A DNA stretch of 64,000 nucleotides from Delphinus delphis (Eukaryota; Chordata; Mammalia; Artiodactyla; Delphinidae), in contig NC_082684.1 in assembly GCF_949987515.2 (NCBI RefSeq), forward strand, positions 52,790,006 to 52,854,005, read 5' to 3'. The notes beneath the pieces are model-generated. The model was not told the origin of the DNA. It searched no databases and saw only the letters and a list, made by a program, of their open reading frames with translations. The position numbers and the translations under genes are program-made. Position 1 is the first letter of the stretch; each line of letters begins with the position of its first letter. This document shows, in pieces, positions 22,375 through 57,930 of the stretch.

Positions 22375-24056
22375 CCAGTGCTGCTCCCTCATGTTTCCAA
22401 GTAGCAAAAATTCAAACTAAAGAAAATATGATTCCTGTGTGGAGAATGCTTGCAGTTGTGTAAATGTCATAGCCGTACACAGCCTGCAACTCCTTCTGTG
22501 CATCTGTACAATTGCTTTGAATGACAGGATTTCCAAAATAGAAAAGTCTCCAGCTGTGACACGCAAAACAACAGTTAGTCAAACACGTAGACTTACCTAC
22601 CGAAAAAGATTCTCTACCCAAGTAGAGTTCTAGCTGACCATTCTCAGTGTTTTTCGTGAAAGAAAAGAATTCAGAAATTCAGGTCAGGAGTTCAGAATGC
22701 TGGAACAGAGCTCTCTGTAAAAGGTCACTAAGAGTGTGGAAATGATGAAAAACGGGAGAAGAATTCTCCATTTTTCCTTTACAAAAATACAGCTTTTTTT
22801 CTTTTTTATTACTTAGTGAAATATTCTCTATAAATATGCAAATAATAAATGTTCATGGTAGATACTCCAAGAAACAATGGAGCTAATGTGCATCTCTGAT
22901 TTGTAGTTTTTTCAGGATGCTTATACGAAAAGGGGCTCGCTAATACGGTAAAGAGCTGTATTGCAGATGTAGTTTGTTATGAAAAAGTCCTTAAAATCTT
23001 TCTCACTGATACTCTAGGAGGTAATGATGTCTGCGCCTTGTCCAGAAAGCTTTATGAAACTGTTTCATGGAATACAGATAGTCTCTACCCAAGAGTGGAT
23101 GTTCAGATAGATAATTTTCTCTGTATAGTAGATGGATTGTCTTACAAAATAAAATCTATTGATAATCCTTATTCATGAACTTCCCAATTCGATGCAAAAA
23201 GACCATTTATTTTAGGCTAAGTAAAATTATAAAAAATTATTTGATTTAGTCAATTCAGTCTAAAAGCTAATCCATCTGAAAGAAAACCAGTCTTAACCGT
23301 CATTTCTATTACACAGATCATTAAAAAAATAACCTGGTTAAATGTAACTTTTAAACATTTGTTATACCGAATTTTGTTGGCATAATGTATCTATAATTTC
23401 AGTGAATGCTTATTTTCTAGTCTTATTACCTGAAAATCCGCTGGAAACCTACTCTCAGACAATTATAGAAGAGACCATGATTTCTGTCTTCAGTTGGAAG
23501 ATGGAAAGTTGCCACAAGTTTCCACGGACACTGACTGAAGAACTTCCATATTTGAGACCCGTAACAATATGGTTGTTTGATGGGAGCATATATTGTTCTG
23601 TAAACAGCTAGAGTATAAGTTCTAGTGGGCAGGAACAGTGTCTGTTTTGTTCACTGCAATATTCGGCTTGCTAAGCTTCCTGCTGTGCCCACAGTGAGCA
23701 CTGGTTAAATATTTATTGAATGAAAGCTTTGGAGGGCAGAGATGGAATTTAGCAGTGCTGTGTCTGGGCACAGGAGAAGGAACACTAGCCCACTTGGACA
23801 CAAACAGATAAGAAAAGGCCTGGCTTGGCAGCAGTTCTTGTAAAAAAGATGTGTTGGTTCTATTTGGCCTTGAGTTTAATGTGCACCTGCTCTGAAACGT
23901 GGGTACAAAAAAATGTCCGGGGTAATCATATGCTATATATCATAACATCCAAGGAAGGGATCTTATTTTGTTAACTTCATGTTCTCCTACCTGCCTTTTC
24001 AGTTTCTGCCTTCTGATTGTTTCTTGCCTTTAGTGGCTAAACATACCTAAGTCTCT
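22375..24056. other. Mostly unique DNA
   Basis: No gene recognised. A weak L2-like 3' end (GTGGGCAGGAACAGTGTCTG, then AAATATTTATTGAATGAAAG) lies at about 23615-23725. Frames at 22412-22633 and 23402-23611 are unsupported. Confidence 0.4.
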
Positions 24057-24600
24057 TTTTTTTTTTTTAACATCTTTATTGGAGTATAATTGCTTTACAA
24101 TGGTGTGTTAGTTTCTGCTTTATAACAAAGTGAATCAGTTATACACATACATATGTTCCCATATCTCTTCCCTCTTGCATCTCCCTCCCTCCCACCCTCC
24201 CTATCCCACCCCTCTAGGTGGTCACAAAGCACTGAGCTGATCTCCCTGTGCTATGTGGCTGCTTCCCACTAGCTATCTATTTTCCATTTGGTAGTGTATA
24301 TATGTCCATGCCACTCTCTCACTTTGTCCCAGCTTACCCTTCCCCCTCCCCATATCCTCAAGTCCATTCTCTAGTAGGTCTGTGTCTTTATTACCGTCTC
24401 GCCCCTAGGTTCTTCATTACCTTTTTTTTTTTCTTAGATTCCATATATATGTGTTAGCATATGGTATTTGTTTTTCTCTTTCTGACTTACTTCACTCTGT
24501 ATGACAGACTCTAGGTCCATCCACCTTATTACAAATAACTCAATTTTGTTTCTTTTTATGGCTGAGTAATATTCCATTGTATATATGTGCCACATCTTTA
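24057..24600 (-). mobile_element. 5'-truncated L1, 3' end only, minus strand
   Basis: Poly-T, then the L1 3'UTR and the last part of ORF2. The readable ORF2 C-terminus, reading down from 24600 to 24434, is WHIYTMEYYSAIKRNKIELF then [20 protein letters not shown], ending at an intact stop. It is the same family as the full-length L1 at 51.9-57.9 kb. I could not find a convincing target-site duplication. Confidence 0.9.
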
Positions 24601-28953: not shown

Positions 28954-28963
28954 AAAAATGGAG

Positions 28964-29166
28964 GGCTTCCCTGGTGGCGCAGTGGTTGAGAGTCCGCCTG
29001 CCGATGCAGGGGACGCGGGTTCGTGCCCCGGTCCGGGAAGATCCCACATGCCGCGGAGCGGCTGGGCCCGTGAGCCATGGCCGCTGAGCCTGCGCGTCCG
29101 GAGCCTGTGCTCCGCAACAGGAGAGGCCACAACAGTGAGAGGCCCGCGTACCGGGAAAAAAAAAAA
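28964..29166 (+). mobile_element. CHR SINE, short form (first of three)
   Basis: Starts GGGCTTCCCTGGTGGCGCAG and ends ACCGGG plus 16 A's. Its own target-site duplications AAAAATGGAG match at 28954-28963 and 29167-29176. Diagnostic bases: CCGATGCAGG (A at 29004), GACGCGGG, GGGAAGATCC and CGCAACAGGAG. Confidence 0.95.
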
Positions 29167-29572
29167 AAAAATGGAGATGCCCTTTCATTGGGATCCTGTG
29201 CTGAAGGCTTAATGAACCTACGCATAGTCGAGCTGTAAGCCCACGTACAGGCAGGCACAGAAGCCTGGAATCTCTGTGGGGCAGGGTGTCTGGAGGTCAG
29301 AGCAGAGCGCAGGTGCACTTGCCTTTCCATCTCCCTGAATGGTCCTTCCCTGTAGTCATCCCTTCAAGTTTCATGTGAATTTAGGTCCAGAGAATCTGAA
29401 GATTTTATGGCCCAATTAGAGATGTAACCTCCCTGTGTTCCACATTTCAGCCTGTCATTTCTTTTGTCCACTTCAAATAGGAGATTATGTTTAAAGTGTA
29501 CTGATCTAAGGGCCTGCCTTCTCCAAATTGCTTTAAAATTAAAAAAAAATTAAAATTAAAATAATAGCCAGT

Positions 29573-29783
29573 GGGCTTCCCTGGGTGGCGCAGTGGTTGA
29601 GAGTCCGCCTGCCGATGCAGGGGACGCGGGTTCGTGCCCCGGTCCGGGAAGATCCCACATGCCGCGGAGCGGCTGGGCCCGTGAGCCATGGCCGCTGAGC
29701 CTGCGCGTCCGGAGCCTGTGCTCCGCAACAGGAGAGGCCACAACAGTGAGAGGCCCGCGTACCGGGAAAAAAAAAAAAAAAAA
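29573..29783 (+). mobile_element. Hybrid CHR SINE at the duplication junction
   Basis: The left flank (AATAATAGCCAGT, 29560-29572) and the extra G in CCCTGGGTGG match the third SINE. From CCGATGCAGG (A at 29615) to the right flank AAAAATGGAG (ending 29788) it matches the first SINE. Its two flanks do not match each other, so it has no target-site duplication of its own. The switch lies between about 29586 and 29614. Confidence 0.92.
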
Positions 29784-30184
29784 TGGAGATGCCCTTTCAT
29801 TGGGATCCTGTGCTGAAGGCTTAATGAACCTACGCATAGTCGAGCTGTAAGCCCACGTACAGGCAGGCACAGAAGCCTGGAATCTCTGTGGGGCAGGGTG
29901 TCTGGAGGTCAGAGCAGAGCGCAGGTGCACTTGCCTTTCCATCTCCCTGAATGGTCCTTCCCTGTAGTCATCCCTTCAAGTTTCATGTGAATTTAGGTCC
30001 AGAGAATCTGAAGATTTTATGGCCCAATTAGAGATGTAACCTCCCTGTGTTCCACATTTCAGCCTGTCATTTCTTTTGTCCACTTCAAATAGGAGATTAT
30101 GTTTAAAGTGTACTGATCTAAGGGCCTGCCTTCTCCAAATTGCTTTAAAATTAAAAAAAAATTAAAATTAAAATAATAGCCAGT

Positions 30185-30392
30185 GGGCTTCCCTGGGTGG
30201 CGCAGTGGTTGAGAGTCCGCCTGCCGGTGCAGGGGACACGGGTTCGTGCCCCGGTCCGGGAATATCCCACAAGCCGCGGAGCGGCTGGGCCCGTGAGCCA
30301 TGGCCGCTGAGCCTGCGCGTCCGGAGCCTGTGCCCCGCAACGGGAGAGGCCACAACAGTGAGAGGCCCGCGTACTGCAAAAAAAATAAATAA
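30185..30392 (+). mobile_element. CHR SINE, short form (third of three)
   Basis: Starts GGGCTTCCCTGGGTGGCGCA and ends GTACTGCAAAA plus (AAAT)n. Target-site duplications are AATAATAGCCAGT (30172-30184) and AATAATATTAGCCAGT (about 30392-30407). Diagnostic bases: CCGGTGCAGG (G at 30227), GACACGGG, GGGAATATCC, CACAAGCCGC and CGCAACGGGAG. Confidence 0.93.
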
Positions 30393-30407
30393 ATAATATT
30401 AGCCAGT

Positions 30408-47080: not shown

Positions 47081-47729
47081 TTTTTTTTTTTACCAACCTT
47101 GCCTCTTTTTTTTTTAATAGATCTTTAAAATTGTAATTTTTAAAAGTGTAATTGCTTCACAATACTGTGTTAGTTTCTGTTGTACACCAAAGTGAATCAG
47201 CCATATGCATACATATATTCCCATATCCCCTCCCTCTTGAGCCTCCCTCCCACCCTTCTTATCCCACCCCTCTAGGTTGTCACAAAGCACCAAGCTGATC
47301 TCCCTGTGCTGTGCTGCTGCTTCCATTAGCTATCTATTTTACATTTGGTAGTGTATATATGTCGATGCTACTCTCACTTCACCCCAGCTTTCCCCTTCCC
47401 CCTGTTATGTGTCCTCAAGTCCATTCTCTATGTCTACGTCTTTATTCCTGCCCAGCCACTAGGTTCATCAGTACCATTTTGGTTTTTTTTAGATTCCATA
47501 TATATGCGTTAGCATATGGTATTTGTTTTTCTCTTTCTGACTTACTTCACTCTGTATGACAGACTCTAGGTCCATCCACCTCGCTACAAATAACTCAATT
47601 TCGTTTCTTTTTATGGCTGAGTAATATTCCATTGTATATATGTGCCATTCATCTGTCATTGGACATTTAGGTTGTTTCCATGTCCTGGCTATTGTAAATA
47701 GTGCTGCAATGAACATTGTGGTACATCTG
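47081..47729 (-). mobile_element. 5'-truncated L1, 3' end only, minus strand
   Basis: Two poly-T runs (47081-47090 and about 47106-47116) separated by the 15 bases TACCAACCTTGCCTC, then the L1 3'UTR and the ORF2 C-terminus ([18 protein letters not shown], then EWHIYTMEYYSAIKRNEIEL). Relative to the other copies it lacks about 12 bases just before WHIYTMEYY. Flanks TGTATGTACTCTCT (about 47066-47079) and TGTCTGTACTCTCT (about 47728-47741) are likely target-site duplications with one mismatch. Confidence 0.88.
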
Positions 47730-51848: not shown

Positions 51849-52240
51849 CTGATTTAGGCCTTTTTTTTTTTTTTACATGTTCATTGGAGTATAATTGGTT
51901 TACAATGGTGTGTTAGTTTCTGCTTCATAACAAAGTGAATCAGTTATACATATACATATGTTCCGATATCTCTTCCCTCTTGCGTCTCCCTCCCTCCCAC
52001 CCTCCCTATCCCACCCCTCTAGGTGGTCACAAAGCACCGAGCCGACCTCCCTGTGCTATGCGGCTGCTTCTCACTAGCCATCCATTTTACATTTGGTAGT
52101 GTATATATGTCCATGCCACTCTCTCACTTTGTCACAGCTTACCCTTCCTGCACCCCATATCCTCAAGTCCATTCTCTAGTAGGTCTGTGTCTTTATTCCT
52201 GTCTTACCCCTAGGTTCTTCATGACATTTTTACTTTTTTC

Positions 52241-55200
52241 TTAAATTCCATATATATGTGTTAGCATACGGTATTTGTCTTACTCTTTCTGATTACCTCA
52301 CTCTGTATGACAGACTCTAGGTCCATCCACCTCATTACAAATAGCTCAATTTCATTTCTTTCTATGGCTGAGTAATATTCCCTTGTATATATGTGCCATA
52401 ACTTCTTTATACATTCATCTGCTGATGAACACTTAGGTTGTTTCCATCTCCGGGCTATTGTAAATAGAGCTGCAATGAACATTTTGGTACATGACTCTTT
52501 TTGAGTTATGGTTTTCTCAGGGTATATGCCCAGTAGTGGGATTGCTGGGTCATATGGTAGTTCTATATTTAGTTTTTTAAGGAACCTCCATACTGTTCTC
52601 CATAGTGGCTGTACCAATTCACATTCCCACCAGCAGTGCAAGAGTGTTCCCTTTTCTCCACACCCTCTCCAGCATTTATTGTTTCTAGATTTTTTGATGA
52701 TGGCCATTCTGACTGGTGTGAGGTGATATCTCATTGTAGTTTTGATTTGCATTTCTCTAATGATTAATGAAGTTGAGCATTCTTTCATGTGTTTGTTGGC
52801 AGTCTGTATATCTTCTTTGGAGAAATGTCTATTTAGGTCTTCTGCCCATTTTTGGGATTTTTTGTTGTTGTTGTTATCGAGCTGCATGAGCAGCTTATAA
52901 ATTTTGGAGATTAATCCTTTGTCAGTTGCTTCATTTGCAAATATTTTCTCCCATTGTGACAGTTGTCTTTTGGTCTCGTTTATGGTTTCCTTTGCTGTGC
53001 AAAAGCTTTTAAGTTTCATTAGGTCCCATTTGTTTACTTTTGTTTTTATTTCCATTTCTCTAGGAGGTGGGTCAAAAAGGATCTTGCTGTGATTTATGTC
53101 ACAGAGTGTTCTGACTATATTTTCCTCTAAGAGTTTGATAGTTTCTGACCTTACATTTAGGTCTTTAATCCATTTTGAGCTCATTTTTGCGTATGGTGTT
53201 AGGGAGTGATCCAATCTCATACTTTTACATGTACCTGTCCAGTTTTCCCAACACCACTTATTTAAAAGGCTTTCCTTTCTCCACTGTACATTCCTGCCTC
53301 CTTTATCAAAGATGAGATGACCATATGTGCGTGGGTTTATCTCATGGCTTTCTATCCTGTTCCATTGATCTGTCTTTCTGTTTTTGTGCGAGTACCATAC
53401 TGTCTTGATTAATGTAGCTTTGTAGTATAGTCTGAAGTCAGGGAGCCTGATTCCTCCAGCTCCGTTTTTCCTTCTCAGGATTGCTTTGGCTATTTGGGGT
53501 CTTTTGTGTTTCCATACAAATTGTGAAAATTTTTGATCTAGTTCTGTGAAAAATGCCATTGGTAGTTTGATAGGGATTGCACTGAATCTGTAGATAGCTT
53601 TGGGAAGTAGAGTGATTTTCACAATGTTGATTCTTCCAATCCAAGAACATGGTATATTTCTCCATATATTTGTATCATCTTTAATTTCTTTCATCAGTGT
53701 CTTATAATTTTCTGCATACAGTTCTTTTGTCTCCCTAGGTAGGTTTATTCCTAGATAGTCTATTCTTTTTGTTGCAATGGTAAATGGGAGTGTTTTCTTG
53801 ATTTCACTTTCAGATTTTTCATCATTAGTGTATAGGAATGCCAGAGATTTCTGTGCATTAATTTTGTATCCTGCTACTTTACCAAATTCATTGATTATCT
53901 CAAGTAGTTTTCTGGTAGCATCTTTACGATTCTCTATGTATAGTATCATGTCATCTGCAAACAGTGAAAGCTTTACTTCTTCTTTTCCAACTTGGATTCC
54001 TTTTATTTCCTTTTCTTCTCTGATTGCTGTGGCTAAAATTTCCAAAACTATGTTGAATAAGGGTGGTGAGAGTGGGCAACCTTGTCTTGTTCCTGATCTT
54101 AGTGGAAATGGTTTCAGTTTTTCACCATTGAGGATGATGTTGGCTGTGGATTTGTCATATATGGCCTTTATTATGTTGAGGAAATTTCCTTCTATGCCTA
54201 CTTTCTGCAGGGTTTTTATCATAAATGGGTGTTGAATTTTGTCGAAAGCTTTCCCTGCATCTATTGAGATGATCATATGGTTTTTCTCCTTCAGTTTGTT
54301 AATATGGTGTATCACGTTGATTGATTAGCGTTTATTGAAGAATCCTTGCATTCTTGGAATAAACCCCACTTGATCATGGTGTATGATCCTTTTAATGTGC
54401 TGTTTGATTCTGTTTGCTAGTATTTTGTGAAGGTTTTTGCATCTATGTTCATCAGTGATATTGGCCTGTAGTTTTCTTTCTTTGTGACATCCTTATATGG
54501 TTTTGGTATCAAGGTGATGGTGGCCTCGTAGAATGAGTTGGAGAATGTTCCTCCCTCTGCTATATTTTGGAAGAGTTTGAGAAGGGTAGGTGTTAGCTCT
54601 TCTCTAAAAGTTTGATAGAATTCGCCTGTGAAGCCGTCTGGTTCTGGGCTTTTGTTTGATGGAAGACTTTTAATCACAGTTTCAATTTCAGTGCTTGTGA
54701 TTGGTCTGTTTATATTTTCTATTTCTCCCTGGTTCGGTCTCAGAAGGTTGTGCTTTTCTAAGAATTTGTCCATTTCTTCCAGGTTGTCCATTGTATTGGC
54801 ATAGAGTTGCTTGTAGTAATCTCTCATGATCTTTTGTATTTCTGCAATGTCAGTTGTTACTTCTCCTTTTACATTTCTAATTCTATTGATTTGAGTCTTC
54901 TCCCTTTTCTTCTTGATGAGTCTGGCTAATGGTTTATCAATTTTGTTTATTCCTCAAAGATCCAGCTTTTAGTTTTATTGATCTTTGCTATCGTTTCCTT
55001 CATTTCTTTTTCATTTATTTCTGATCTGATTTTTATATTTCTTTCCTTCTGCTAACTTTGGGGTTTTTTTGTTCTTCTTTCTCTAATTGCTTTAGGTGCA
55101 AGGTTAGGTTGTTTATTCGAGATGTATCCTGTTTCTTAAGGTAGGATTTTATTGCTATAAACTTCCCTCTTAGAACTGCTTTTGCTGCATCCCATAGGTT

Positions 55201-56050
55201 TTGGGTCATCGTGTCTCCATTGTCATTTGTTTCTAGGTATTTTTTGATTTCCTCTTTGATTTCTTCAGTGATCACTTCGTTATTAAGTAGTGTATTTTTT
55301 ATCCTCCATGTGTTTGTATTTTTTACAGAACTTTTCCTGTAATTGATATCTAGTCTCATAACGTTGTGGTCAGAAAAGATACTTGATACAATTTTAATTT
55401 TCTTAAATTTACCAAGGCTTGATTTGTGACCCAAGATATGATCTATCATGGAGAATGTTCCATGAGCACTTGAGAAAAATGTGTATTCTGTTGTTTTTGG
55501 ATGGAATGTCCTATAAATATCAATTAAGTCCGTCTTGTTTAATGTATAATTTAAAGCTTGTGTTTCCTTGTTTATTTTCATTTTGGATGATCTGTCCATT
55601 GGAGAAAGTGGGGTGTTAAAGTCCCCTACTATGAATGTGTTACCGTCGATTTCCCCTTTTATGGCTGTTAGTATTTGCCTTATGTATTGAGATGCTCCTA
55701 TGTTCGGTACATAAATTTTTGCAATTGTTATATCTTCTTCTTGGATTGATCCCTTGATCATTATGTAGTGTCCTTGTTTGTCTCTTCTAATAGTCTATTT
55801 TAAAGTCTATTTTGTCTGATATGAGAATTGCTATTCCAGCTTTCTTTTGGTTTCCATTTGCATGGAATATCATTTTCCATCCCCTTACTTTCAGTCTGTA
55901 TGTGTCTCTAGGTCTGGAGTGGGTCTCTTGTAAACAGCATATATATGGGTCTTGTTTTTGTATCCTTTCAGCCAATCTGTGTCTTTTGGTGGGAGCATTT
56001 AATCCATTTACATTTAAGGTAATTATCAATATGTATGTTCCTATTCCCAT
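52241..56050 (-). pseudogene. L1 ORF2 (endonuclease/reverse transcriptase), broken
   Basis: About 1270 codons in length, as expected for ORF2p. The endonuclease motifs TLNVNGLNAP, LQETH (Glu codon at 55925-55927), VGDFNTPLSPMDRS and SDHN are visible. The reverse-transcriptase motifs [26 protein letters not shown] and FADD (53950-53961) follow. The C-terminal cysteine motif [15 protein letters not shown] is at 52621-52674. Lesions: frameshift and stop near 55787-55800; one-base losses near 55035, 54951 and 54427; a TAA near 54325; and a one-base loss near 52290 that shifts the last residues and moves the stop to 52261. The longest intact stretch, 54315-52261, has 684 codons and opens on GTG. 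Confidence 0.95.
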
Positions 56051-56108
56051 TTTCTTAATTGTTTTGGGTTCGTTATTGTAGGTCTTTTCCTTCTCTTGTG
56101 CTTCTTGC

Positions 56109-57014
56109 CTAGAGAAGTTCCTTTAGCAGTTGTTGTAAAGCTGGTTTGGTGGTGCTGAACTCTCTCAGCTTTTGCTTGTCTGTAAAGGTTTTAATTTCTC
56201 CATCATATCTGAATGAGATCCTTGCTGTGTAGAGTAATCTTGGTTGCAGGTTTTTCTCCTTCATCACTTTAAATATGTCCTGCCACTCCCTTCTGGCTTG
56301 CAGAGTCTCTGCTGAATCATCAGCTGTTAACCTTATGGGGATTCCCTTGTGTGTTATTTGTTGTTTTTCCCTTGCTGCTTTTAATATGTTTTCTTTGTAT
56401 TTAATTTTTGACAGTTTGATTAATATGTGTCTTGGCATGTTTCTCCTTGGATTTATCCTGTATGGGACTCTCTGTGCTTCCTGGACTTGATTAACTATTT
56501 CCTTTCCCATATTAGGGAAGTTTTCAAGTATAATCTCTTCAAATATTTTCTCAGTCCCTTTCTTTCTCTCTTCTTCTGTAACCCCTATTATTCGAATGCT
56601 GGTGCATTTAATGTTGTCCCAGTGGTCTCTGAGACTGTCCTCAGTTCTTTTCATTATTTTTTCTTTATTTTGCTCTGCAGTAGTTATTTCCACTATTGTT
56701 TCTTCCAGGTCACTTATCTGTTCTTCTGCCTCAGTTATTCTGCTATTGATCCCATCTAGAGTATTTTTAATTTCATTTATTGTGTTGTTCATCGTTGCTT
56801 GTTTCATCTATAGTTCTTCTAGGTCCTTGTTAACTGTTTCTTGCATTTTGTCTGTTCTATTTCCAAGATTTTGGATCATCTTTACTATCATTATTCTGAA
56901 TTCTTTTTCAGGTAGACTGCCTATTTCCTCTTCATTTGTTAGGTCTGGTGGGTTTTTATCTTGCTCCTTCATCTGCTGTGTGTTTTTCTGTCTTCTCATT
57001 TTCTCAGTAGACAT
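56109..57014 (-). pseudogene. L1 ORF1 (nucleic-acid chaperone), one in-frame stop
   Basis: ORF1p binds L1 RNA and forms trimers. The start is at MSTEKMRRQKN (57014, or the second ATG at 56999). A coiled coil (ITEAEEQISDLEETIVEI), an RRM-like part (IRIIGVTEEERKKGTEKIFE) and the C-terminal domain (ARREWQDIFKVMKEKN...) follow. A single TAG at 56808-56810 splits the frame into about 67 and 232 codons. The codon after the stop is ATG. No other lesion is seen in ORF1. Confidence 0.95.
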
Positions 57015-57930
57015 CAGGGCGAGCCTGCGGTGGCAGAGGCCAGTGTGACATTGCACCAGCCTGAGGCACGCCGTGCGTTCTCCTGGGGAACTTGTCCCTG
57101 GATCCTGGGTCTTTGGCAGTGGCAGGGCTGCACAGGCTCCCCGGAAGGGGGTTGTGGATAGTGACCTGTGCTCGCACACAGGCTTCTTGGTGGCGGCAGC
57201 AGCAGCCTTAGCATCTCATGCCCGTCTCTGGGGTCCACGCTGTTAGCCGCGGCTCATGCCCGTCTCTGGAGCTCCTTTAAGCAGCGCTCTTAATCCCCTC
57301 TCCTCGCGCACCAGGAAACAAAGAGGGAAGAAAAAGTCTCTCGCCTCTTCAGCATGTCCAGACTTTTCCCCAGACTCTCTCCTGGCTAGAGGTGGTGCAC
57401 TAACTCCCTGCAGGCTGTGTTCACGCCGCCAACCCCAGTCCTCTCCCTGCGCTCCGACAGAAGCCCGAGCCTCAGCTCCCAGACCTGCCTGCCCTGGCGG
57501 GTGAGCAGACAAGCCTATCCGGCTGGCGAGTGCCGGTCGGCACCGATCCTCTGTGTGGGAATATCTGCGCTTTGCCCTCCGCACCCCTGTTGCTGTGCTC
57601 TCCTCCGTGGCTCCGAAGCTTTCCGCCTCTGCCACCCACAGTCTCCGCCAGTGGAGAGGCTTCCTAGTGTGTGGAAACCTTTCCTCCTTCACAGCTCCCT
57701 CCCACTGGTGCAGGTCCCGTCCCTATCCTTTTGTCTTTGTTTATTCTTTTTTTCTTTTGCCCTACCCAGGTACGTGGGGACTTGCTTGCCTTTTGGGAGG
57801 TCTGAGGTCTTCTGCCTGCATTTAGTAGGTGTTCTTTAGGAGTTGTTCCACGGGTAGATGTATTTCTGATGTATCTGTGGGCAGGAAGGTGATCTCCGTG
57901 TCTTACTCTTCTGCCATCTTCCCCGATCTC
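57015..57930 (-). promoter_or_regulatory. L1 5'UTR / internal promoter with YY1-like site
   Basis: The GC-rich, CpG-containing 5'UTR contrasts with the AT-rich surroundings. The first bases read GAGATCGGGGAAGATGGCAG. The AAGATGGC at 57913-57920 (about +11 to +18) matches the YY1 core and sits where L1 promoters carry YY1. Antisense frames exist (for example 57256-57504) but have no recognised product. Confidence 0.6.

Follow-up and report, generated by a model that had tools for sequence, protein, structure and literature searches.

A 612-bp tandem duplication in Delphinus delphis, probably formed by homology-guided exchange between two CHR-type SINEs

A 64,000-nucleotide stretch of the Delphinus delphis genome (contig NC_082684.1, positions 52,790,006 to 52,854,005; hereafter, the window) carries an array of three short interspersed elements (SINEs) and two spacers that very probably arose as a tandem duplication, through homology-guided exchange between two SINEs in direct orientation. 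The middle element is a chimera of its two neighbors, and the point at which it passes from one parent to the other is confined to an interval of 29 bases. We take the elements to be CHR SINEs, a label that follows the preliminary description and not a library match. Their body of approximately 190 bp has many relatives: 53 hits of at least 120 bp to the first SINE were obtained, 15 of them in the window (14 without the chimera) and 38 in a small sample of 190 kb taken outside it (19 stretches of 10 kb), at a similar density. A twentieth stretch fell within the window and was not counted in the sample.

Results

Structure of the array

The array extends from position 28963 to position 30397. 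As a preliminary description of the window had reported, three SINEs on the same strand, here numbered SINE 1 to SINE 3, alternate with two spacers of about 400 bases; these proved to be 401 bases each and identical (Table 1). When the array is divided into two repeat units of 611 and 612 bp, the units differ by no substitution, and their sole difference is one inserted A in the poly-A run (16 in SINE 1 and 17 in SINE 2), in agreement with the single poly-A base noted earlier. Exact matches run for 199 bp (28973-29171, equal to 29584-29782) and for 459 bp (29156-29614, equal to 29768-30226). A 381-base query from the spacer returned only two matches in the whole 2.66-Gb assembly, both of them these copies at 100% identity, and chance similarity is therefore excluded.

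The sequences flanking the three SINEs are distributed in a manner that sets the middle element apart. SINE 1 is flanked on both sides by AAAAATGGA(G), the final G of which is possibly part of the SINE, and SINE 3 is flanked on both sides by an exact TAGCCAGT, so that the matching target-site duplications claimed for the outer elements are present, together with a 3′ A-rich tail in each. The right copy of the longer SINE 3 flank, AATAATAGCCAGT, differs by 3 bases, for which the wording "AATAATAGCCAGT-like" had been a fair one. SINE 2 lacks such a duplication, its two flanks having one base in common. On the left it carries the flank of SINE 3 and on the right that of SINE 1, exactly the exchange of flanks that had been proposed. 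The missing duplication is what would be expected of a recombinant, and the flanks and diagnostic bases together lead us to reject an independent insertion of the middle SINE.

Diagnostic bases and the exchange interval

SINE 1 and SINE 3 were compared over 192 columns, 8 of which are diagnostic; the longest tract identical between the two is 61 bp. At the 5′-most diagnostic column, which is the additional G of the run at 29583-29585, SINE 2 is of the SINE 3 type, and at the remaining seven, which span 29615 to 29763, it is of the SINE 1 type. The change from third-type to first-type bases described previously is thus found as one switch, and at most one switch occurs in 16 of the 256 possible orders of eight columns. 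Since the SINE 3-type G run precedes it and the first SINE 1-type base stands at 29615, the switch is placed within 29586-29614. If the ambiguous G run is disregarded, this is exactly the interval given earlier for the crossover; if the two Gs common to both elements are included, the tract measures 31 bp. The motif TGGCGCAGTGG within the interval is presumably A-box-like. A chimeric 58-mer that joins the extra G to SINE 1-type bases occurs once in the assembly.

Table 1. Features of the SINE array (window coordinates)
Feature	Coordinates	Strand	Remarks
SINE 1 left target-site duplication	28954..28963	+	AAAAATGGA(G)
SINE 1	28963..29171	+	CHR-type; poly-A 16; parent of the chimera's 3′ part
Unit copy 1	28975..29585	+	611 bp
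SINE 1 right target-site duplication	29167..29176	+
Spacer copy 1	29172..29572	+	401 bp; no genome match outside this array
SINE 3 left-flank copy preceding the chimera	29560..29572	+	AATAATAGCCAGT
SINE 2 (chimera)	29573..29783	+	SINE 3-type 5′ end, rest SINE 1-type; poly-A 17
Exchange interval	29586..29614	+	Between SINE 3-type G run and first SINE 1-type base, 29615
Unit copy 2	29586..30197	+	612 bp
Spacer copy 2	29784..30184	+	401 bp; same as copy 1
SINE 3 left target-site duplication	30172..30184	+	Exact core TAGCCAGT at 30177-30184
SINE 3	30185..30397	+	CHR-type; parent of the chimera's 5′ part; end of A-rich tail approximate
SINE 3 right target-site duplication	30392..30407	+	AATAATATTAGCCAGT; 3-base difference

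To estimate the reliability of the diagnostic marks, 41 other CHR hits with aligned lengths of at least 170 bp were drawn from the window and the 19 sampled stretches, with SINEs 1 to 3 left out. The extra G was scored by a direct motif count, because the multiple alignment misplaced it near the 5′ end, where columns 0-10 are artefactual. The plain motif CCCTGGTGG was present in 33/41 elements, neither motif in 8/41, and the three-G motif CCCTGGGTGG in 0/41; the extra G therefore looks private to SINE 3, a rarity judged from this sample and from the genome search for the chimeric 58-mer. Recurrent G slippage as the origin of the SINE 3-type mark finds no support in the same two results. Among the SINE 1-type columns, SINE 1 and SINE 2 have two minority bases in common, G at column 54 (10/41) and A at column 158 (7/41).

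A probable single exchange between SINE 1 and SINE 3

The preliminary description had attributed the array to a 612-bp duplication by recombination between SINEs, and the swapped flanks, the missing target-site duplication at SINE 2, and the single switch support that attribution. One exchange is the simplest account, because the flanks are swapped, the diagnostic columns are ordered, the units are free of substitutions, the chimeric 58-mer is unique, and the spacer is confined to this array. Under this account, the ancestral locus would have held two direct CHR SINEs on either side of a single spacer of 401 bases. Pairing would have brought the 5′ end of SINE 3 opposite the corresponding position of SINE 1 on a second DNA molecule, either the sister chromatid or the homologue, and an exchange within 29586-29614 would have fused the left portion of SINE 3 with the right portion of SINE 1. 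This would give the order SINE 1, spacer, 3/1 chimera, spacer, SINE 3, with a deletion that leaves one 1/3 chimera as the reciprocal outcome. The structure, the chimera, and the exchange interval are seen directly in the sequence; we infer the single-spacer ancestor, the single step, and the agent, whether crossover or template switching, from the present arrangement.

Several points weigh against this account. The single-spacer ancestor is deduced from one assembly. The 5′ side of the switch is carried by one diagnostic column and the flank. On the 3′ side, SINE 1 has the majority CHR base at 5/7 columns, and the agreement of SINE 2 with SINE 1 at those five is weak evidence when taken alone, since most CHRs share these bases. 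What carries the 3′ side is instead the flank, together with the two minority bases and the identity of tail and spacer. The swapped flanks and identical spacers are stronger evidence than the diagnostic marks.

The event had also been called very recent, and the lack of any substitution in 611 bp agrees with that. What it yields is a 95% upper bound on age only: 2.5, 1.6, or 1.1 million years (My) at assumed rates of 1.0, 1.5, or 2.2 × 10^-9 substitutions per site per year, respectively. The bound allows for polymorphism. It is doubtful, but conceivable, that the array is a segregating copy-number variant with a reciprocal one-SINE deletion allele and that CHR exchange in cetaceans occurs by preference at the A-box end. 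The preliminary description proves right on the structure, on the coordinates, and on the class of mechanism.

Alternative explanations

Unequal crossover and replicative template switching yield the same product. Template switching of the microhomology-mediated break-induced replication (MMBIR) or fork stalling and template switching (FoSTeS) type, or microhomology slippage within the SINEs, may quite possibly have acted in place of meiotic unequal crossover. We treat this as one form of the homology-guided exchange and count it within the confidence placed in that explanation. The identical tract of 29-31 bp at the switch is short for classical nonallelic homologous recombination (NAHR), for which PMC9675761 gives a figure of over about 100 bp, and we therefore do not file the event under classical NAHR. 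The same paper sets a 15-bp median for Alu events against the >100 bp expected of traditional NAHR. The switch nevertheless joins homologous positions, and neither inserted bases nor further switches accompany it, as a crossover would also give. The event fits the homologous class of transposable element-mediated rearrangements described in PMC9675761 in that its breakpoints fall in two different elements of the same class, SINE 1 and SINE 3, SINE 2 is full length, and the switch is at a homologous position within the 29-31-bp tract.

An assembly artefact, in which one spacer was walked twice through the SINE 1/SINE 3 repeat cycle or allelic copies were joined in tandem, could produce units with 0 substitutions between them, as observed. 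However, when a script was run on the deduced single-spacer locus, the switch tract supplied a k-mer shared by SINE 1 and SINE 3 only at k ≤ 31. At k values of 33, 41, 51, 55, and 61, only the 61-bp tract (SINE 1 bases 88-148) was shared, yet the switch does not use it, and at 62, 63, and 71 no k-mer was shared. The unequal poly-A runs also stand against an artefact, as does the setting: the window has no N and lies within a 178-Mb sequence of a 630-contig assembly, the assembly yielded no further single-spacer copy, and the 190 kb sampled contain no other near-perfect tandem repeat. This argument from sequence, which is not proof, makes an assembly error unlikely, and less likely than had been allowed earlier.

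Three independent insertions, or an older array homogenized by gene conversion, might be entertained since CHRs are frequent in the window, but either is scarcely credible given that SINE 2 lacks a target-site duplication, both of its flanks are copied from its neighbors, and the 611-bp identity takes in the spacer.

Frequency of comparable arrangements and genomic context

In the 190-kb sample, four pairs of neighboring CHRs lay on the same strand within less than 1.5 kb of each other, and no same-strand repeats of at least 150 bp at ≥95% identity were found. The same comparison in the window, with a 20-kb limit, returned this array and two SINE-to-SINE matches. Exchange substrates thus look common and recent duplications rare, as judged from a small sample. 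Other close same-strand pairs (stretch L022, 9086-9445; L020, 3285-3912; L016, 8713-9316; and L021, 503-1017) are possible exchange substrates in their own right, and no near-perfect duplication was seen in the stretches that contain them. Two of the sampled stretches have N runs, of 62 and 77 bases.

Between 28500 and 31000, ARAGORN, which seeks tRNA genes, reported 0 tRNA genes, and Rfam, which holds curated families, gave 0 matches at E values up to 0.1; a degenerate tRNA-derived head may escape both scans. The window contains 33 stop-to-stop frames of at least 110 amino acids (aa), several of which overlap SINEs; this open reading frame (ORF) listing, made without a family search, led to no gene identification at the locus. 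The duplication is a structural mutation, and nothing observed points to a function.

The longest frames in the window look LINE-1-like by eye. Six consecutive stop-to-stop frames of up to 687 aa on the minus strand (52261-57215) resemble pieces of LINE-1 ORF2 and ORF1 on the same visual basis. Two dispersed direct repeats are possibly LINE-1 pieces: 24055-24354 with 51860-52159 (300 nucleotides, 93% identity) and 24422-24592 with 47477-47647 (171 nucleotides, 95% identity).

Discussion

The array offers a clean and apparently single-step case of SINE-guided duplication outside primates, in which the two parental elements can be seen beside their chimera and the exchange is confined to 29 bases. 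As a near-perfect 612-bp repeat, it may change copy number again. Among the titles and opening abstract lines examined from the literature on cetacean SINEs, recombination, and structural variants (SVs), none concerned a CHR-mediated tandem duplication, and the consulted part of PMC3389668, on human tandem repeats that overlap transposable elements (TEs), offers no closer parallel. The mechanism is not new: for Alu, duplications of this kind have ample documentation, and reports extend across the vertebrates.

The cetacean CHR-1 and CHR-2 elements used as insertion markers are, as presented in PMC3219603, tRNA-related SINEs; they are flanked by direct repeats, as are the outer copies here. The middle copy, although it looks like an insertion, did not arise as one; it would mislead if counted as such and should not be scored in a SINE-based phylogeny.

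On a broader scale, the available text of a 2026 preprint (PMC13320814) describes SINE-mediated SVs that arise through ectopic recombination, in more than 600 vertebrate species, with homology lengths that peak where Alu and tRNA elements fall in size. For cetaceans, it attributes raised ratios of SVs to single-nucleotide variants (SNVs) chiefly to SINE/tRNA activity, which was later dampened in Delphinidae. That survey deals mostly with insertions and deletions between haplotypes, whereas the present case is a single duplication, resolved together with its chimera in one assembly.

The closest comparison is with Alu/Alu duplications. According to the part of PMC9675761 consulted, 543/5,297 SVs in three human genomes were TE mediated, and 33 duplications were among the 493 Alu or LINE-1 events analyzed. 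The median junction homology was 17 bp for homologous TE-mediated events and 15 bp for Alu events, most of which are thought to be RAD51 independent. Those duplications likewise involve two direct SINEs, a full-length chimeric SINE at the junction, a switch in a short identical tract, and a unit that measures from hundreds of bases up to kilobases. The present array differs in that its elements are CHR and not Alu, in that its unit is 612 bp, compared to 1,085 bp for the TE-mediated duplications of that study, and in that it is seen in one assembly, whereas the human events are differences between individuals.
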